From positions 1-25,032 of IMG/VR virus record IMGVR_UViG_3300025276_000202: a stretch of DNA of 25,032 nt; one strand, written 5' to 3'. Under the pieces are notes generated by a model, which saw only the letters and a program-made list of their open reading frames with translations, had not been told where the DNA came from and ran no database searches. Position numbers and translations under genes: made by a program. The number at the start of each line of letters is the position of its first letter. The stretch's first letter is position 1. Positions 817-14,817 of this stretch are shown here, in pieces. This DNA comes from a virus.

Positions 817-3800
817 ATGTCGCTGAAAGATGACCTGAAGTTAAACAAGCCAAGGCGCACGCCTAATCACGCGACGAAGTCTCACGTTGTGAAGACCAAC
901 GTAGACGGCAAGCCTAAGATGATCAGGTTTGGCGAGCAGGGTGCGAGCACCGCTGGAGCGCCGAGCCCTAACGATTCGGCAGCGGATAAGGCCAAGCGCA
1001 AGTCGTTCAAGGCCAGGCACGCATCTAACATTGCCAAGGGTCCGGCGTCTGCCGCATATTGGGCTGACAAAGTAAAGTGGGCTGAAGGCGGCGCGGTTGA
1101 AGAGAAAGAGATATATCAAATACCTCCCTCGTATCTTGATATTGCCGGTGATGTTGTATTCGACACTGTCTCTGGATTAGTTGGCCCTATTGCTGCGTCA
1201 GCGGCATCTCTGGGCGAGCAGGCATTCACTGATAACACCATTGAGGAAATGGCTCAGAACAACGAGGCTTACAACGCAGCTCTAAACTACATTCCAAGAA
1301 CTGCTGAAGGCCAGGCGACTAGCGACTACGCCATGGGAAAGCTGGGCGAAGGAGTGGCTTACCTAGCTGATACGTACAACGAGAACAAAGACTACCTGGG
1401 TCGCCTGGGACCAATCCCTGGCATGATCGACTACGGCATGGAGAAATACAACGAGCTCGAACCAGAGACTCAGTTTGCTACAGAAAACTTGCTAACGGTA
1501 GGCGAGGTTATCCCCGTCGGTAAAGCTGCCGGAATGGCCAAACGTGGCGCCGCACAGGGCGCACAGAGCGTCAAGCGAGGCGTGGAAAATGCGCTTGATT
1601 TAGCGAGCCGAATTGAGATTGATACGAATGTACTTGGTACGGTTGGCGGTAACATTACCGTAAGGCCAAAAACACCAGGCTTGGATAACTTACTTAAAGT
1701 TGAAAGTGGCGGCAATTTGAATGCCACATTGATTGGTAAGACCGGCGATACGTTTAGCATTCCTAGCGGCAAAGCTGTTTCAGAAATGACTATGAAAGAA
1801 CTGGAAAGTTTGCAGGGTGCTAGAGGTTCTGGAAGTTATCACGCATGGTCCAAGAGCAACATGCCTGAAGGAACAGAGGCATTCAAAGGAGGCTTAGGAT
1901 CGACGCCTGTAGGCAAATATCAATTCGTTGGAAATACGTTAAAGGATTTAAAAAATCGAGGTGTGTTGGCAAAACTAAACATAACCGATGATACTGTCTT
2001 TGATGAACAAACGCAGGATAGATTGTTTCTGGCTTTGGCTGAAGAACGTCTTGCTCAAGCCAGCAATGCCAAAGGCAAACGAGATGCAATGCGGAATACG
2101 TGGGAAGGCTTAAAGAGCAGTACCGACAAAGAGGTAGATATTGTTATCGCTGAGATTGAGGCCGGTAAACTTAATGGCAGTGCGGATACGGCTGCTGTAT
2201 TAACGGATACTCCTCACCGCCTAACGTCAACTGCCCGTGAAGTTGCAGATAAGCGAATTGCTCTGGAGAAAGAGATGGCTCTGTTAGAAGCGGAGAGATC
2301 TGGAAAAGCTCTAAAGCGTGTTGGATCGCAAGTTAAAATTGATGACCTGGCAAAAACTTTTGATACGGATCACATAGATGTACATGGCCGAAAGCTAGAT
2401 CCGACAGTAGCGGCGGATCAATTAATAGCTGCAAGAATCATTGCAGCTGACATCGACGCACAGATGACGCAAGCCAACTCTGGTGCGGGATGGTATGATG
2501 CAGATGTTGAGAAGACCTTTGAGATGTTGGGCGCGATACCTGGTCTCGAAGATTTACAGAATAATGAGACCAAAAGAATAATCTGGTCGGCTCTTGCTGC
2601 GCCCACATCGATCAACCAGAAAGTTATAAACAACACTAAGGCAGCTACGGCTGCTATGTTGACCTACGCACGCACCGGAGAGATCCCAATTGTTGCGCCA
2701 GTCAAGGACGCGACAACCCAAGGCATAAAGAATGCTGGCTGGGGCATGTATGGCGTTACTTCTGTTGAACCTGGTATGAAAGTCATATCGAAGTTGATTG
2801 AAAAGTACGGCGAAGAAGGTTTTGCTGATTGGTGGCTATCACCGCACACTTTAAAAGAACTGACAGACATTAGGAAAGAAGCTGGTTTAGGTGGTGGGCC
2901 TTCTGGCCTAAGTGGTGGCAAAGACAGTATTCACCTTGGAGCTATGGTTCTAGGTGACAAGACAGGTCGCTTCTCTCTGAACATAAATGGCTATGAGGGG
3001 ACCACGAAAGACGTTTGGTATTCTCGTAGCTACAACCGCGCATTTGGGCAAATGTTTGGCGCGAACGACCCGAAGACTGGATTGCCCGTGGTTCAGGGCG
3101 GTCCTAGAAATCAAACTGAACGCAGGCAAATGGAGGCTTTCAACCAGCTGGTTCTTGACAATACTGCGCTAAAAGGATTATCAGAGGCTGATGCACAGGC
3201 AGTTCTGTGGTTCTACGAACAAGGTTTATATTCTCGCTTGGGTGTTCAATCACGCCCAGGCTCATTTAGTGAAGGTGTAGGAGAAGTATATGGGTCTCTC
3301 GGATTACGACAGCCAGTTCGCGGAAGCGATGGCATTGAAATTGAAATTGAACCGCCAACAGCGCTCGACAACTTCCGCGACACCAGTGGAAGCGTCAGGG
3401 CCATCCGCGCCAACAGGCGTGCCAATGCGCGACTCGATAATGGATCAGGTCTTGGCGGAACGACCGGGCCTTACACGCGAGAAGTTGTCGAAACAGATGG
3501 CGGCACTGGGCTACTAAGCTTTACTCCCGACCCTGTTGTTTCCAAGCAATATGAAACAGCAGGTAATTCTCTCCCCGCCATTAGACAAGTAAATTCTGAG
3601 CCTAACGCTGCTACCTATAACGCAGACATGGTAGCTGCTATGGCAGAAAATCCTGCTGGCGCTCAAGTAGAAATAAAAAGCGCTGAAGACCTTTCAGGCT
3701 ACAATCTTTTCCGAACTGAAGCAGGCAGTGGGCTTGCCATTAAGCCTGACGGCGACATAGTAGCTGTGTTCGCCTCTCCTAATGAGCCCCCTCGCGGTTC

Positions 3801-5271
3801 CTACGCAATGCTGCAAGCCGCAGTCCAAGCAGGCGGCAAGAAGCTAGATGCGTTTGATACATTCCTACCTAAGATATACGAGTCAGCCGGATTTCGTCCA
3901 GTAGCGCGTCTTCCGTGGAACGATGAATTTGCCCCGCCAGGATGGGACAAGAAAGTATTTTCTGAACACAACAATGGCGAGCCAGACATTGTCTTCTTTG
4001 TGCATGACTCAAACTACTATGGCGGCGCAAAAGATATCCCTGTTGTTAAAGAATACGACCAAGCTGTTTTACTCCAAGATGAGGCACTGAAAGATATGAA
4101 TAATCCATTAGAAAGTTTTAGGATCGGCGGACTAGCTACAAAGAGCACCCCCATGCCTGTTAACGCTCCAGAAGGTATACAGCCTCTGACTTTGACGAGG
4201 GAGGATGGAGAGCTTCTTGTAGATCTAACTCCTATCATTGGAGACATTAAAGGCGGCATTGAAGGCGCCCAAATAATAATACAGGAATTAAAAGCTGATA
4301 ACCCTAATTGGCTGCTAATAGGAGTGATTGGCGGAGCGACGGTGGCAGGGATGATACCTCTTGTGGGTGTAGGAGCTAAAAAATTAATGATGAAAGGCGC
4401 CAACAAATTTAAAAAAGATAAAGTATTAGAAGAAACTTTAGATATGTTGCCGGTGCAAGAAGCTGAAATAGTTAAAGATTTAACTAATAAAAGCGCAGCC
4501 TATAGATTTGGTCTAACAGACATGGATCAGAACAAGGATATCGCCACTGCTTTTGAAGAAATGGTTGAGGACAATAAAGACTTATACACAGAAGATGTTT
4601 ATCATTTCACTAAAGGCACGACTAGGTCCGTAGGGGATGACGTACTTACAGGTGACAAGTTTGATCCGTCCGGCGGTAATAGCAGGTTTAATAGATTAGG
4701 AACACACGTTGGAACCCCAGAGGCCGCAAATGATCGCTCTGTATTCTTTTTAGGGCCGAATAACGATAGCCCCAAAGGAGGGGGAATAATGCCTTTGCGC
4801 GCAAGAGTTGATAAGCCCTTGCTCAATTCAAGCGGAGAAGTTTTTGGCGAAGAAGACATTATTCCTTTAATGAATAGATATGCTGATGATAACAAAATTG
4901 CTGATCTTGATATAGCTGCGGATATGTTTAGGCAAGAATTAACAGACCAAGGGTATACTCACATCCCGTATACAAATAATATTGAAGGACGCACTGATCT
5001 CGGTGAAAGAACTGAGAGTAAGATAATGCTTACTGACCGCACAGCCGGAGATCCCGCAGTTCTAAAAGGTAAGTTTGGTAAATATGAAGATGTTTACGAT
5101 CCTAGACTTATGAAAGCTGAAGGTGGAGCAGTTAATGCCCAGTATGACGCAGAGAGAATAAATAAAATCGCACAGAGCTTACTAACTGAAAACTTTGCAA
5201 AAGGCGGTCCAGTGACTTATAACGCGAGCAGAATTAATAAAATCGCCAACCGACTATTAGAGGAGCTTTAA
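817..5271 (+). CDS. Giant multi-domain 'polyvalent-like' phage protein (lysozyme-like, unknown domain, GNAT-like, ADP-ribosyltransferase-like)
   Basis: 1484 residues, start ATG after TAGGAG. Visible modules: residues 1-94, a basic module (KSHVVK, IRFGEQG, AAYWADKVKW) that I recall as a stand-alone small protein in other phages; about 285-430, a lysozyme/transglycosylase-like domain with candidate catalytic E296 (KVESGGN) and TPVGKYQF at 363-370; about 480-600, helical and charged; about 540-835, a large domain of unknown function (GWYDADVE, WYSRSYNRAFGQM, LWFYEQGLY); about 825-925, a low-complexity linker; about 929-1070, a GNAT-acetyltransferase-like domain (GLAIKPDGDIVAVF, YESAGFRPVARLPW); 1164-1186, a membrane segment; about 1258-1430, an ADP-ribosyltransferase-like domain (VYHFTKGTTR, LGTHVGTPEAANDR). 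The C-terminus (1443-1481) carries a duplicated RINKIA motif. Lying between terminase and portal, it may be packaged and injected. The lysozyme call is fairly good; the GNAT and ART calls are inference by pattern. Confidence 0.75.
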   Translation: MSLKDDLKLNKPRRTPNHATKSHVVKTNVDGKPKMIRFGEQGASTAGAPSPNDSAADKAKRKSFKARHASNIAKGPASAAYWADKVKWAEGGAVEEKEIYQIPPSYLDIAGDVVFDTVSGLVGPIAASAASLGEQAFTDNTIEEMAQNNEAYNAALNYIPRTAEGQATSDYAMGKLGEGVAYLADTYNENKDYLGRLGPIPGMIDYGMEKYNELEPETQFATENLLTVGEVIPVGKAAGMAKRGAAQGAQSVKRGVENALDLASRIEIDTNVLGTVGGNITVRPKTPGLDNLLKVESGGNLNATLIGKTGDTFSIPSGKAVSEMTMKELESLQGARGSGSYHAWSKSNMPEGTEAFKGGLGSTPVGKYQFVGNTLKDLKNRGVLAKLNITDDTVFDEQTQDRLFLALAEERLAQASNAKGKRDAMRNTWEGLKSSTDKEVDIVIAEIEAGKLNGSADTAAVLTDTPHRLTSTAREVADKRIALEKEMALLEAERSGKALKRVGSQVKIDDLAKTFDTDHIDVHGRKLDPTVAADQLIAARIIAADIDAQMTQANSGAGWYDADVEKTFEMLGAIPGLEDLQNNETKRIIWSALAAPTSINQKVINNTKAATAAMLTYARTGEIPIVAPVKDATTQGIKNAGWGMYGVTSVEPGMKVISKLIEKYGEEGFADWWLSPHTLKELTDIRKEAGLGGGPSGLSGGKDSIHLGAMVLGDKTGRFSLNINGYEGTTKDVWYSRSYNRAFGQMFGANDPKTGLPVVQGGPRNQTERRQMEAFNQLVLDNTALKGLSEADAQAVLWFYEQGLYSRLGVQSRPGSFSEGVGEVYGSLGLRQPVRGSDGIEIEIEPPTALDNFRDTSGSVRAIRANRRANARLDNGSGLGGTTGPYTREVVETDGGTGLLSFTPDPVVSKQYETAGNSLPAIRQVNSEPNAATYNADMVAAMAENPAGAQVEIKSAEDLSGYNLFRTEAGSGLAIKPDGDIVAVFASPNEPPRGSYAMLQAAVQAGGKKLDAFDTFLPKIYESAGFRPVARLPWNDEFAPPGWDKKVFSEHNNGEPDIVFFVHDSNYYGGAKDIPVVKEYDQAVLLQDEALKDMNNPLESFRIGGLATKSTPMPVNAPEGIQPLTLTREDGELLVDLTPIIGDIKGGIEGAQIIIQELKADNPNWLLIGVIGGATVAGMIPLVGVGAKKLMMKGANKFKKDKVLEETLDMLPVQEAEIVKDLTNKSAAYRFGLTDMDQNKDIATAFEEMVEDNKDLYTEDVYHFTKGTTRSVGDDVLTGDKFDPSGGNSRFNRLGTHVGTPEAANDRSVFFLGPNNDSPKGGGIMPLRARVDKPLLNSSGEVFGEEDIIPLMNRYADDNKIADLDIAADMFRQELTDQGYTHIPYTNNIEGRTDLGERTESKIMLTDRTAGDPAVLKGKFGKYEDVYDPRLMKAEGGAVNAQYDAERINKIAQSLLTENFAKGGPVTYNASRINKIANRLLEEL
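3279..3283 (+). promoter_or_regulatory. Shine-Dalgarno AGGAG of the embedded gene
   Basis: AGGAG lies six bases before the ATG at 3290, inside the long 817-5271 reading frame. An SD of this quality and spacing in front of an out-of-frame ATG supports independent translation of the overlapping 75-codon frame. Confidence 0.55.
3290..3517 (+). CDS. Small gene embedded out of frame in the giant-protein gene
   Basis: A 75-residue frame lies in the +1 phase relative to the 1484-residue gene. It has AGGAG six bases before its ATG and ends in TAC TAA. The product looks like a real small phage protein: a hydrophilic N-terminus (SDYDSQFAEAMALKLKLN), a Pro/Ser/Thr-rich middle at 26-45, and a helical C-terminus with RDSIMDQVL and RPGLTREKL (58-66), ending LGY. 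'PGLTREE..'-like endings recur in small phage proteins, from memory. The protein read in the long frame across the same bases is low-complexity (Gly/Arg/Thr-rich) and falls between two recognisable domains, as expected if this frame is the older one. About two thirds of the codons end in G or C. Function is unknown. The alternative is a chance ORF, but the SD and sensible product argue against that. Confidence 0.55.
   Translation: MGLSDYDSQFAEAMALKLKLNRQQRSTTSATPVEASGPSAPTGVPMRDSIMDQVLAERPGLTREKLSKQMAALGY
5143..5265 (+). repeat. Diverged tandem repeat encoding the C-terminus of the giant protein
   Basis: Residues 1443-1456 (YDAERINKIAQSLL) and 1468-1481 (YNASRINKIANRLL) are two copies 25 residues apart. 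Each is preceded by a Gly-Gly-x-Val element (AEGGAV at 1434-1439, AKGGPV at 1461-1466). The copies share AATAAAATCGC at the DNA level but differ elsewhere, so the duplication is not recent. Confidence 0.75.
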
Positions 5272-5272
5272 C

Positions 5273-7867
5273 GTGGCTGAAGAGAACGATATTGAAGTCG
5301 AAGTAGAAGAAATCACGATGGTTGAGCTCCCAATAGAAGAGCTAGATTTTGAAGATACTGAAGACGGTGGCGCAATTGTAAAGATGGAGTCAATCACTGT
5401 TAAGGAAGGTAGCGAGCACTTTGCTAACATTGTAGACGATGTAGACCCCAGTCTTTTAAAGACTTCCATTAATAACTTAATGGAGAAAATTGAGCGAGAC
5501 AAAGAAGCTCGTCAGAAGCGAGACCTTCAGTACGAAGAGGGATTGCGTCGCACCGGCCTTGGCGATGATGCGCCAGGCGGAGCTCAGTTTCAAGGAGCCA
5601 ACAAGGTTGTGCATCCCATGCTGGTCGAAGCTTGTGTTGACTTCTCTGCGCGATTTATTAAAGAAATATTCCCGCCTACTGGTCCAGTTAAGTCTAAGAT
5701 CATAGGTGAGGCAGACAAGTCAAAGGTCAAAAAAGCCCAGCGCAAGACTGAGTTTATGAATTGGCAGACTACTGAGCAGATGGTTGAGTTTCGTTCAGAG
5801 CTTGAACAGCTAAGCACGCAGCTTCCATTAGGCGGCGGTCAGTATATGAAGTTTATGTGGAACGCTCGATTTATGCGTCCCACCTCTGAATTTGTGCCTA
5901 TCGATGATATCTATCTGCCTTTCTCAGCAACAAACTTTTACACCGCAGAGCGCAAAACCCACGTTCAGTACGTCACGCAGATGGAGTACGAAAAGCGTGT
6001 CGAGGCTGGAATGTATGCAGATGTAGATCTGCCTACTCCAAATGATCCAGAATTTAGCGCGGCAGAGCGTGCAAACGAGAAAATTGAAGGCAAGCAGAAC
6101 ACTAGCTATAACGAAGATGGTTTGAGAACGATCTTTGAGATTTACACGTTCATGGACTTTGAAGACGGCGAAGGCTTAGCACCTTATATTTTGAGCGTAG
6201 ACAAGTCTTCTGATAAGGCGCTGTCTCTTTATCGTAACTGGGAAGAGGATGACACCAGGCAGAACGAGCTGCACTGGATTGTAGAATTCCCGTTTGTTCC
6301 TTGGCGGGGAGCTTATCCGATTGGCCTAACGCACATGATAGGTGGATTGAGTGGAGCAGCTACTGGCGCCCTACGAGCTCTTTTGGACTCGGCATATATC
6401 CAGAACGTGCCAACACTGTTAAAGCTGAAGGGTGGACCAAACGGTCAGACGCTAAATGTTCAGCCTACTGAGATCGTTGAGATGGAAGGCGGGGCGTTGA
6501 TTGATGACGTTCGCAAGCTTGCCATGCCACTGCCATTTGCCGGTCCCAGCCCTACTTTGTTTCAACTGCTCGGCTTCCTAGTTGATGCAGGCAAAGGCGT
6601 TGTTCAGACATCGTTTGAGAAGTTTAACGACCAGAATCCGAATGCACCAGTTGGCACGACGATGGCTATCATCGAGCAGGGCATGGTTGTGTTTAGCTCT
6701 ATCCATTCGCGCTTGCACGCATCCATGGCTCGCAGCTTTAACATCCTGCACCGCATTAACTCTATGTACTACACGCAGGAAGAGCTTGATGCGTTAGACG
6801 CTGGCCTGGAAATATCAGCAGAAGACTTTGACGGTCCATCAGACGTTGTGCCTATCAGTAATCCTGCGATATTTAGTGAAGCCCAACGCTTTGCTCAGAT
6901 TCAGGCGATTATGCAGCGTGCTGAAAAAATGCCGCAAATGTATGATCAAAAAGCGGTTGAAGAGTTGTTTTTACAGACGCTCAAGATCCCGCCTTCAGAG
7001 GTAATGCAGCAGCAACCAGGCTCAGAAGATAGAGACCCAGTAAGCGAGAACGTAGCAGCTGCCATGAACCAAGGCATTTACGTTCTGCCCCAGCAAGATC
7101 ACTTGGCTCATTTGCAGGTTCATTTGCCATTCTTAAAGTCTCCAATGTTTGGGTCCAGCCCTGGCATTATGAGCACATTCTTTTATCCAATGGCGTTGCA
7201 CATGCGAGATCATGTATTAAACTATTATCTAGTAGAATCTCACAGTGCTATTGATCAGGCGCAGACTGAACAGTTAATTCCTGAAGAGGCAGAGCAGCAA
7301 GTAGAAGTTATTCTTAAAGTTCAATCTTTTATCGAAGAGCAGCTAGGTGGGTTTGCTCAAGAATTGGCTCAAATTAATGAAACTGCACAGCAGTTTAAGC
7401 CTGAAAATCAGCCTCAACAGCCTGGCGATGCAATAAAAATCGCAGAGCTCAGCGCGCAGATTAAGCAAAGTGAGCTTGCCCAGCGCACAGAACGCGATGG
7501 CGCCAGAATTCAACTGGACAACGCCAAAATGCAAGCAGCTAATGAAATTGCACAACTTAAAATGCAACAGACTGCTGAGATTGAACGCGCTAAACTGGCA
7601 GCTAAGCAAGCTGAGCGTGAAGATAAAGCAGACGCTCAAGGTCTTCAGCAACTTTCTGAAACAGAGCGCAACAACATTAAAGAGATGTCTGAGACAGATC
7701 GACTTAATACTCGTGAGAAAGGCGAGAATAAGCGTAAGGCGGAAGACCTGGCGGCTAGAGAGCGCATGAATGATGCTGACAACAGGACCGCCAAAGAGCT
7801 GGCCAATATGGAAATGGAGTCAGGAGAAAAAACCTCATACACTAGCGGAAAAGGAATTGATCCATAA
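5273..7867 (+). CDS. Portal protein
   Basis: This 864-residue protein is the size expected for a P22/marine-podovirus portal, the dodecameric ring through which DNA is packaged and ejected. The start is GTG, one base after the previous stop, with GAGGAG at 5260-5265 giving good spacing; no upstream ATG fits. The N-terminus (1-50) is strongly acidic. The core has GAQFQGANKVVHPMLVEA, FIKEIFPPTGPVK, FVPIDDIYLPFSATNF, and near 455-500 NPNAPVGTTMAIIEQG followed by SSIHSRLHASMARSF. These are the most typical portal segments of this group as I remember it. From about 715 to 850 it is a long charged coiled coil (Glu/Lys/Gln/Arg-rich), comparable in position to the P22 portal's C-terminal barrel helix. 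It overlaps the next gene by one base (TAATG). The portal assignment is confident; the exact subfamily is not. Confidence 0.9.
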   Translation: MAEENDIEVEVEEITMVELPIEELDFEDTEDGGAIVKMESITVKEGSEHFANIVDDVDPSLLKTSINNLMEKIERDKEARQKRDLQYEEGLRRTGLGDDAPGGAQFQGANKVVHPMLVEACVDFSARFIKEIFPPTGPVKSKIIGEADKSKVKKAQRKTEFMNWQTTEQMVEFRSELEQLSTQLPLGGGQYMKFMWNARFMRPTSEFVPIDDIYLPFSATNFYTAERKTHVQYVTQMEYEKRVEAGMYADVDLPTPNDPEFSAAERANEKIEGKQNTSYNEDGLRTIFEIYTFMDFEDGEGLAPYILSVDKSSDKALSLYRNWEEDDTRQNELHWIVEFPFVPWRGAYPIGLTHMIGGLSGAATGALRALLDSAYIQNVPTLLKLKGGPNGQTLNVQPTEIVEMEGGALIDDVRKLAMPLPFAGPSPTLFQLLGFLVDAGKGVVQTSFEKFNDQNPNAPVGTTMAIIEQGMVVFSSIHSRLHASMARSFNILHRINSMYYTQEELDALDAGLEISAEDFDGPSDVVPISNPAIFSEAQRFAQIQAIMQRAEKMPQMYDQKAVEELFLQTLKIPPSEVMQQQPGSEDRDPVSENVAAAMNQGIYVLPQQDHLAHLQVHLPFLKSPMFGSSPGIMSTFFYPMALHMRDHVLNYYLVESHSAIDQAQTEQLIPEEAEQQVEVILKVQSFIEEQLGGFAQELAQINETAQQFKPENQPQQPGDAIKIAELSAQIKQSELAQRTERDGARIQLDNAKMQAANEIAQLKMQQTAEIERAKLAAKQAEREDKADAQGLQQLSETERNNIKEMSETDRLNTREKGENKRKAEDLAARERMNDADNRTAKELANMEMESGEKTSYTSGKGIDP

Positions 7868-8559
7868 TGGCATTTCTACAAGGCAACATACCGCACTTTA
7901 AGTGCTGGGTCAGGAAAGAATACACTCACAACCATGAGAAGTTTCATGGCGAGTGGATTCATGCGATGGCCGTAGCTGTAACCACGCTGCCTAATAGATG
8001 TTTAAGCTTCCAGATTATATTTACTGGGGCTGAAACTTATGACACAGATGAATCTAATGTTCATGGTGGAGCAATGTGGGCAAGAATGCCTATAACTGCT
8101 CTAATGGGGGACACTCCGGTTGACGAGTGGCCAGAGCCGATGTCTACACATGACGCCCAACCTTGGGACTGTGCATCTCGCACTCACAGCGTCTATGTTC
8201 TAGACCGATGTACGCCAGCTCCTTGGCTGGCAAAGATTGACGGGGAGTTTTATCCTGCCAAATACTATTTTACTGTGGACTATACCGATTCAGAAGTTGC
8301 AGACGATCCAGCTCAACATAAGCAGGCGCACGTTCTAGAACTTCTTGATGCAGGAAAGTGGACAGGTAATATAGTAGCCTTACCTAACAATAGAGTTCGT
8401 GTAAGCCACCCAGCTTGGTTTGAACTAGGAGAAGGTGCTCCTGATTTTAGACCTTCTCAACACATCCATTACAGTAAATCTGATCTGGATTACACGTTGG
8501 ACGTTAACCAAGTTTTTGATAACATTTATGCAGAGGAAGAAGATAATGATGAAAAGTAA
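7867..8559 (+). CDS. Conserved phage protein of unknown function after the portal
   Basis: 230 residues, start in a TAATG overlap with the portal stop, so probably translationally coupled to it. I do not recognise a functional family. The sequence is rich in aromatic residues, His and Trp (FKCWVRKEYTHNHEKFHGEW near the start; AWFELGEGAPDFRPSQHIHY near the end), with alternating beta-type segments, no signal peptide and no membrane helix. The C-terminus is acidic (EEEDNDEK). It looks like a folded, soluble beta-rich protein, and its place between portal and scaffold suggests a role in the head or in head assembly. A head-tail joining or minor virion protein is possible, but nothing in the sequence proves it. 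Confidence 0.7.
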   Translation: MAFLQGNIPHFKCWVRKEYTHNHEKFHGEWIHAMAVAVTTLPNRCLSFQIIFTGAETYDTDESNVHGGAMWARMPITALMGDTPVDEWPEPMSTHDAQPWDCASRTHSVYVLDRCTPAPWLAKIDGEFYPAKYYFTVDYTDSEVADDPAQHKQAHVLELLDAGKWTGNIVALPNNRVRVSHPAWFELGEGAPDFRPSQHIHYSKSDLDYTLDVNQVFDNIYAEEEDNDEK

Positions 8560-8719
8560 AGGTTACGCCAAAGGCGGTAAAACCAAAGGCGGCAAAATGA
8601 AGAGCAAGGGCTACGCCAAAGGCGGTGCAGTCAATATGAGTTCTGATGCAGTTCCGCAGCACAAGCGTATGGCAGCTGGATATAAAGTTAATAAGACTTC
8701 TAGCACTACTAACTCTTAA
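8546..8719 (+). CDS. KSKGYAKGG small basic protein
   Basis: The likely start is the ATGATG at 8546/8549 behind AGAGGAAGAAG, giving 56-57 residues that begin MMKSKGYAKGG. It overlaps the end of the preceding gene in another frame. A longer version from further upstream has no better support. The first 30 residues hold two copies of KSKGYAKGG separated by KTKGGKM, then AVNMSSDAVPQHKRMAAGYKV and a Ser/Thr tail. It is very basic and glycine-rich, with no membrane helix. A relative with three tandem copies of the same motif is encoded at 14500-14817. Similar KGYAKGG proteins are common in marine phages by memory, but I know of no function; DNA-associated internal protein or virion assembly tag are guesses. 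Confidence 0.7.
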   Translation: MMKSKGYAKGGKTKGGKMKSKGYAKGGAVNMSSDAVPQHKRMAAGYKVNKTSSTTNS

Positions 8720-8918: not shown

Positions 8919-9115
8919 TGAATATAGACTCTAAACTTTTAAACCTTCTCAAAGCAAACCAAGCAGAATTTGCGCTTGAAGCTTTGAGGAGGCCACAAAA
9001 ACGCGATACTTTCGAGTACGGGTATCGAGTTGGTATGGTTGCAGGTTACGAGGCAGCTATTGATGTACTCTTGAACTTAATAGATGAGGATAAAAATGGA
9101 ATCCAAGACTTATGA
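8918..9115 (+). CDS. Small helical protein of unknown function
   Basis: 65 residues, coupled to the previous gene by TAATG and overlapping the start of the GroES-like gene. It reads as mostly alpha-helical: LLNLLKANQAEFALEALRR, then EYGYRVGMVAGYEAAIDVLL and an acidic end. The middle part (YGYRVGMVAGYEAAIDVLLNLI) resembles a short amphipathic helix pair of the kind seen in many small phage proteins ('F.yG...G...G...al..l'). No catalytic or metal-binding motif is visible. Tight coupling on both sides supports it as a real gene. Function unknown. Confidence 0.7.
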   Translation: MNIDSKLLNLLKANQAEFALEALRRPQKRDTFEYGYRVGMVAGYEAAIDVLLNLIDEDKNGIQDL

Positions 9116-9515
9116 GGACGCACTTGCGGAGGCTTTCCCAGCAGTAAATGCTGGAATACGGCCTTTCGGTAGCCGCGTTCTGATCCAGATACGCACAGCA
9201 AAAAGCAGAACAGCTGGCGGCATCATACTAACCACTGATACTTCTGAAACAGAGAAGTGGAATACTCAGATTGGTAAGGTAGTTTCTGTTGGGCCTTTAG
9301 CTTTTAAAAATCGTAATACGATGGAAAGTTGGCCCGAAGGTAATTGGTGTTTGGAAGGCGATTTTGTGAGAGTTGCTAAATACGGTGGAGATCGGTGGGA
9401 AGTTCCTATTCCTGATGCTCCCCACGGTGAATCAGCAATGTTTGTAATTTTTAATGATCTTGACATTATGGGTAGCGTTGAAGGCGACCCACTTAAAGTT
9501 AAGGCATTCATCTGA
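9096..9515 (+). CDS. groES: GroES-like phage co-chaperonin
   Basis: 139 residues from ATG 9096, preceded by GAGGAT; the in-frame ATG at 9084 would place that SD inside the gene. From residue 21 it follows the Cpn10 pattern: IRPFGSRVLIQI, then AGGIILT at 40-46, then GKVVSVGP. The AGGI-I-L-T stretch matches the GroES mobile-loop segment (AGGIVLTG in E. coli GroES), whose hydrophobic tripeptide binds GroEL. The remainder (LEGDFVRVAKYGGDRWEVP, FVIFNDLDIMG) matches the barrel strands and the usual DIL/DIM ending. A C-terminal extension of about 15 residues and a 20-residue N-terminal extension go beyond a minimal GroES. Phages such as T4 (gp31) use their own co-chaperonin to fold the capsid protein, and this gene sits just upstream of scaffold and capsid genes. 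Confidence 0.88.
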   Translation: MESKTYEDALAEAFPAVNAGIRPFGSRVLIQIRTAKSRTAGGIILTTDTSETEKWNTQIGKVVSVGPLAFKNRNTMESWPEGNWCLEGDFVRVAKYGGDRWEVPIPDAPHGESAMFVIFNDLDIMGSVEGDPLKVKAFI

Positions 9516-14499: not shown

Positions 14500-14817
14500 A
14501 TGGGTATGAAATCAAAAGGATATGCTAAAGGTGGCATGAAATCCAAAGGGTCAGCTAAAGGCGGTATGAAATCCAAAGGCTACGCTATGGGCGGTATGAA
14601 ACAGGGCTATAATGCTCGTTTAGACGATTCAATGGGATCTAGGAATGGATCAAAGAATCAATCTATGGGTTCTCGCCGCAATGAAAGCAAGGGTATGGAG
14701 AAGTCCATGGGAAACCGAGCATATTCAGGTAATATGAGCAGTGCTCAAGGATATAAAAGTGGCGGCTCTGTAGACGGGTTTAAGAAAATGGGAACCATGA
14801 AGAACAGTTGGGATTAA
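14500..14817 (+). CDS. KSKGYAKGG tandem-repeat protein
   Basis: 105 residues after AAGGAG. Residues 3-32 are three ten-residue copies: MKSKGYAKGG, MKSKGSAKGG, MKSKGYAMGG, then a decayed MKQGYNA. The rest is rich in Ser, Met, Gly, Asn and Lys/Arg (DDSMGSRNGSK, SMGSRRNESKG, SMGNRAYSGNMSS) and holds a further SGGSV element near 88-92 (GYKSGGSVDGF). It is basic and probably disordered, with no fold motif. It shares the KSKGYAKGG motif with the 8546-8719 protein, so the two are related. A 67-base gap without a clear promoter separates it from the next gene. Function is unknown; DNA-interacting internal protein or assembly tag are possibilities only. Confidence 0.7.
   Translation: MGMKSKGYAKGGMKSKGSAKGGMKSKGYAMGGMKQGYNARLDDSMGSRNGSKNQSMGSRRNESKGMEKSMGNRAYSGNMSSAQGYKSGGSVDGFKKMGTMKNSWD
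14506..14595 (+). repeat. Three 30-base in-frame tandem repeats
   Basis: Units at 14506-14535, 14536-14565 and 14566-14595 all begin ATGAAATC(C/A)AAAGG and end GG(C/T)GG(C/T). They differ at a few, mostly silent, positions, so they are under protein-level selection rather than freshly duplicated. A degenerate fourth copy starts at 14596. This is not a CRISPR: there are no spacers. Confidence 0.9.

Follow-up and report, generated by a model that had tools for sequence, protein, structure and literature searches.

Introduction

Genes lying wholly inside other genes have long been known in phages, Rz1, which is nested within Rz, being one of them. Another is gene E, which is located within gene D of phiX174 (reviewed in PMC8227390). 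Phage polyvalent proteins with ART and GNAT domains are also well established (Iyer et al. 2017, PMC5512222); the main text of that paper contains no occurrence of the word "overlap", and no mention of a nested gene was found in it. The gene described here is nested, widespread and linked to a single effector domain. A search of an open-access literature collection revealed no description of this nested gene family.

The locus lies within a 25,032-nucleotide stretch of viral DNA (IMG/VR record IMGVR_UViG_3300025276_000202, positions 1 to 25,032), referred to below as the window. We consider it highly probable that a small ORF at positions 3290–3517 (plus strand) is a genuine gene, wholly nested in the +1 frame of the gene for a polyvalent-type virion protein (817–5271, plus strand; 1484 aa). 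As with E/D of phiX174 and Rz1/Rz, the ORF is contained entirely inside another one, in a different frame and with its own start, and selection is seen on both frames. In contrast to those pairs, the nested ORF has no lipobox or hydrophobic segment and no lysis function is suggested, the surrounding gene encodes a giant polyvalent-type protein, and separate homologues exist in bacteria. Inspection of the product for the features of Rz1-type spanins detected no signal peptide, cysteine or hydrophobic stretch, and the host gene is not Rz. The latter resembles the described polyvalent proteins (PMC5512222) in being multidomain, in its location beside the portal and terminase genes, and in the presence of a GNAT domain.

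The giant gene and the ORF nested within it

The giant gene is placed 3′ of a terminase fragment and immediately 5′ of the portal gene, a position which fits the view that its product is probably packaged in the virion and injected. The window's giant protein gave no Pfam match. Its residues 459–875 and 875–1094 occur in relatives as separate modules. Module A (approx. residues 459–820; 2191–3276, plus strand) ends with ...QAVLWFYEQGLYSRLGV..RPGSFSEG, and its last codons contain the ribosome-binding site of the nested gene. The second module matches phage acetyltransferases and was placed by Foldseek among GNATs (best match E = 1.4e-3, probability 1.00). On the basis of these matches and an AlphaFold model, in which the fold starts near residue 886, the GNAT acetyltransferase module was assigned to approx. 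residues 886–1105 (3472–4131, plus strand). Several conflict-type domains are combined in this one polypeptide, the GNAT being recognized from acetyltransferase matches and Foldseek and the others from homologues. An ART-PolyVal domain is a Pfam match in the giant protein of Limnohabitans phage DC33, to which part the window's giant protein shows weak similarity (E = 0.005).

The nested ORF comprises 75 codons, from the ATG at 3290 to the TAA at 3515–3517, covers residues 825–900 of the giant protein, and encodes MGLSDYDSQFAEAMALKLKLNRQQRSTTSATPVEASGPSAPTGVPMRDSIMDQVLAERPGLTREKLSKQMAALGY. It is preceded by AGGAG (3279–3283, plus strand), separated from the ATG by a 6-nt spacer (AAGTAT), so that the frame, its ribosome-binding site and its clean stop are exactly as the first-pass annotation had described them. 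A TAG (3278–3280, plus strand) in the same frame, four codons 5′ of the ATG, argues against entry into this frame from upstream by frameshifting. The same annotation had read the long frame at this place as a low-complexity linker between two domains. This holds for the greater part of the overlap, which is mostly disordered in the AlphaFold model (pLDDT <50 for most residues); the last third of the nested ORF, however, extends beyond the linker and takes in the N-terminal margin of the GNAT module.

A structure model of modest quality (pLDDT 69) predicts that the product starts with a long helix, which a flexible central part connects to a helical hairpin. The predicted N-terminal helix (residues 5–26; 3302–3367, plus strand) carries the motif xYDxxFxxAMxLKLxLNR, and the predicted C-terminal hairpin (residues 44–57 and 63–73; 3419–3508, plus strand) includes the motif R..IM..VLA..PGLTRE.L...M..LG[FY], which is common to all types of the nested product. 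The model had no convincing viral fold match, the sequence has no relative in the PDB, and searches of PHROGs, Pfam and NCBIfam yielded no named family, the matches being below threshold and mutually inconsistent. ISET-FN3_linker (E = 0.0023) was discarded as a candidate family since the match is below the family cut-off.

Conservation of the nested frame in close relatives

Of synonymous shuffles of the giant gene that preserved both its protein sequence and its codon usage, 0.6–1.1% left the +1 frame open over the codons of the nested ORF (P approx. 0.01), and a single sequence therefore proves nothing. A scan with residues 601–1040 of the giant protein identified 64 loci, 40 of which (L001–L040) share the linker region. 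In all 40 the +1 frame is open and the +2 frame is full of stops; a start codon is present at the homologous place in each, and most have a GGAG, AGGA-type or similar site upstream. The aligned nested products have xYDQEFAQAMKLKLxLNR and HPGLTxEExxxMxExGF in common, with a variable middle, and each of the 35 distinct relatives conserves the pattern xYDQEFAQAMKLKLxLNR...HPGLTREExxxMxExGF up to the stop codon. The signs that the first-pass annotation had named as speaking against a gene did not appear: the nested frame is free of stops in 35/35 distinct relatives, in all of which the long frame is uninterrupted, most relatives retain the ribosome-binding site, and homologues were found. By comparison, a control ORF of 61 aa in the same gene and the same frame, but outside the system (2987–3172, plus strand), is open in only 6 of the 35, is not conserved, and is accompanied by no synonymous constraint at giant residues 724–786.

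The distribution of substitutions also changes within the overlap. Pairwise differences at the first, second and third codon positions of the giant frame amount to 0.27–0.30, 0.21 and 0.59 in the flanks and to 0.45, 0.37 and 0.34 in the overlap, where the third position thus becomes the slowest; in the small frame it is the third position that changes most often. For sequence pairs that agree in the giant residue, the fraction of identical codons is 0.39 upstream, 0.77 inside the nested ORF and 0.41 downstream (p = 1.3e-22), with steps at the borders of the ORF; these pairwise statistics are uncorrected for relatedness, which does not, however, affect the comparison of the sequences with their own flanks. 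The comparison of synonymous sites in both frames, proposed in the first-pass annotation, has therefore located the constraint within the ORF, with substitutions that follow the small frame, and the claim of a hidden gene is strongly supported by this dual-coding signature together with the homologues. As judged from these alignments, the nested product, its start and its stop are under purifying selection.

We can give virtually no credence to the explanation that selection acts on the giant frame alone and that the +1 frame is open through composition. The chance of 75 open codons at this place is approx. 0.01, and it reaches values of up to 0.43 in some GC-rich relatives, where an open +1 frame is thus not unusual. 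Composition would nevertheless leave unexplained the conservation of the start region, the stop and the peptide, the reversed codon-position pattern, and the freezing of synonymous codons exactly over the nested ORF. The signature in the relatives and the control ORF, which fails the same comparison, refute it.

Three of the close relatives (L038–L040, around 6638–6970) are without the GNAT module; they have kept the N-terminal half of the nested product, while the C-terminal half is different and the end ragged.

Recurrence of the nested gene in unrelated contexts

In a further set of loci (L042–L061) the same GNAT module is joined to an unrelated upstream module, and a nested +1 ORF is again present, the C-terminal half of which is shared whereas the N-terminal half differs. 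With few exceptions, the nested ORF ends where the GNAT domain of the polyvalent-type protein begins. The dual-coding signature is repeated in three further groups (types II, III and IV of the nested ORF), among them the relatives of DC33, with identical-codon fractions of 0.76, 0.74 and 0.85 vs. 0.46–0.55 in the flanks. A start and ribosome-binding site of its own are likewise a recurrent property of the nested gene, strong sites being found in unrelated phages (AAGGAG in the relatives of DC33, AGGAG in type II), with the exception of type IV, whose members have no clear Shine-Dalgarno sequence.

Searches of cultured phages by tblastn gave no match with the window's product, whereas a type III query detected Limnohabitans phage DC33 (PQ492659.1), a cultured short-tailed phage of a freshwater host (PMC12195039). 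Its giant protein (3133 aa, with Pfam LPD22 and ART-PolyVal) has the same architecture as that of the window. The nested +1 ORF (minus strand, 27569–27781, stop codon not counted), which is not annotated in the record, differs in its N-terminal half; it is preceded by AAGGAG and ends with NPGLTRQEIVEMAEKFGF and the stop codon before the GNAT. Close relatives of DC33 were found in 27 viral contigs. The taxonomy line of the DC33 record files this phage under Inoviridae, but according to the paper it is a tailed phage with dsDNA and belongs to the Caudoviricetes (PMC12195039).

A scan with the GNAT module of DC33 identified 80 loci, most of which contain a nested +1 ORF whose end lies near the GNAT domain; the groups without it include L208/L209, L214 and L221, and some GNAT-bearing phages gave no match to the nested-protein profile. 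In the most distant loci (L203, L215 and L218–L220) the motif is weak and we do not insist on homology. Two DNA-motif scans, for PGLTREEA and HPGLTREE, which were blind to the GNAT, revealed five nested small ORFs, all in the +1 frame and each directly 5′ of a GNAT domain. One phage contig (that of L278) carries two giant genes, each with a GNAT and its own nested ORF.

At another locus (L197, around 3938–3968) a stop interrupts the giant frame where the nested gene usually ends, and the nested frame reads on; apparently a single base change alters both frames and leaves the GNAT in a separate frame of 215 codons.

Separate homologues in bacteria

A scan of bacterial and archaeal genomes revealed non-nested homologues in two bacterial contigs, in accordance with the expectation of the first-pass annotation that relatives might encode the product as a separate gene. 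The copy in a Rhodobacteraceae single-cell genome (L114, 5953–6162) lies behind GGAGG and reads MSKQ...YDQEFSQAMKLKLKLNRE...ADIEEIMRAMKEMGF up to its stop codon. An alphaproteobacterial MAG (L113) contains two copies, one at 5326–5544 (minus strand) and one that extends from 6001 to the contig end, by which it is cut. The nested-protein profile matched the contig-end copy with E = 1.5e-10, the L114 copy with E = 6.9e-9 and the other L113 copy with E = 3.6e-6. At the L114 and contig-end copies the other frames are closed by stops. None of the bacterial copies has a GNAT gene nearby in the stretches read. No further separate copies were found in 298, 295 and 385 additional sampled genomes; the other profile matches in these wider bacterial samples were rejected, as they lie inside unrelated proteins.

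The separate copies indicate that the product can stand alone. Its recurrence at an equivalent position in numerous phages of marine and fresh waters, together with these bacterial genes, means that the hidden gene almost certainly encodes a real protein which annotation has missed.

Two readings without such a protein have to be weighed against this evidence. Synonymous constraint alone could arise from a DNA or RNA element (a packaging signal, RNA structure or promoter). This is extremely improbable here, because the third position is the one most often substituted in the small frame, residues being kept while nucleotides change, the nested frame has no stops, the same peptide motif is encoded by different DNA and in separate genes, and the window contains no Rfam match. 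It is also very improbable that programmed frameshifting in the giant gene yields a product of which the +1 frame forms the tail. All the nested frames are indeed +1, and some relatives have this frame open some way 5′ of the start; however, in-frame stops immediately precede the start both in the window and in many relatives, conservation begins at the start codon, the ribosome-binding sites are kept, and the contig-end homologue of L113 starts at the same place.

Weak matches resembling the SAM-V riboswitch were observed in both bacterial contigs (L113, 5928–5997, and L114, 5071–5138; 30.1 and 32.7 bits, respectively, with a cut-off of 41). One ends directly before a separate small gene, whereas about 0.8 kb separates the other from the copy downstream; at the loose threshold, matches were obtained in control genomes as well.

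Origin of the overlap

The first-pass annotation had proposed that an originally separate small gene was retained when its neighbors fused across it. Several observations are consistent with this history, but no phage with the ancestral separate order was found. That the giant frame grew over an older separate gene is plausible, since separate copies exist, the small-gene unit travels with the GNAT domain, and the stretch over which the small product is conserved shows disorder and poor conservation in the giant frame.

The reverse, in which the small gene was born by overprinting within the giant gene and the bacterial copies escaped later, has somewhat less than an even chance of being correct. 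In its favor, the nested forms are widespread and the separate copies rare, and in the window it is the giant frame whose codon usage is better. The small frame, however, has the better codon usage in 10 of the 14 sequences compared, codon usage thus speaking clearly for neither origin. The disorder and lower conservation of the giant frame over the overlap count against a birth within the giant gene.

Possible function

The nested product accompanies the GNAT domain whatever lies upstream, and its N-terminal half varies with the upstream module, which makes service to the GNAT-bearing protein (packaging, chaperoning or restraint) the likeliest role, at a probability well below one half. From this linkage we tentatively propose that it may be a dedicated small partner of the giant protein (a chaperone, packaging adaptor or inhibitor). 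Internal initiation by ribosomes on a late structural mRNA would yield a protein of approx. 70–85 aa, in which the conserved C-terminal helical hairpin (PGLTREE...M..xGF) is combined with an exchangeable N-terminal part. Such a partner could handle the giant GNAT-bearing protein during its synthesis and capsid loading, and overprinting would prevent partner and effector from being parted when the module is transferred from one phage to another.

It is a rather doubtful, more specific proposal that the gene encodes an inhibitor or chaperone of the very effector module which it overlaps, both being compressed into the same nucleotides. If so, phages that swap the GNAT by recombination would necessarily carry its handler along, with the N-terminal half re-adapted to each upstream module. 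A special case of the partner role, which we regard as unlikely, is an antidote that would curb the effector's GNAT or ADP-ribosyltransferase activity late in infection. The close linkage to the GNAT across unrelated upstream modules would agree with this, and the GNATs of polyvalent proteins are thought to modify proteins (PMC5512222); the bacterial copies, however, have no adjoining GNAT in the stretches read, and a role directed at the host may fit them better.

As ORFs located wholly inside longer ones are not predicted by gene callers, a conserved family of genes has apparently escaped notice. Since it is linked to a domain of proteins thought to be injected into hosts, it may provide a handle on their restraint or packaging. 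The family also provides an example from nature of domains being shuffled by way of dual-coded DNA, and DC33 offers a cultured phage for testing the gene.

Other features of the window

Between the portal and capsid genes, the window encodes a GroES-like co-chaperonin (9084–9515; Pfam Cpn10, E = 3.1e-9). Two further ORFs (14500–14817 and 8435–8719) specify low-complexity peptides with repeated KSKGYAKGG-like units.
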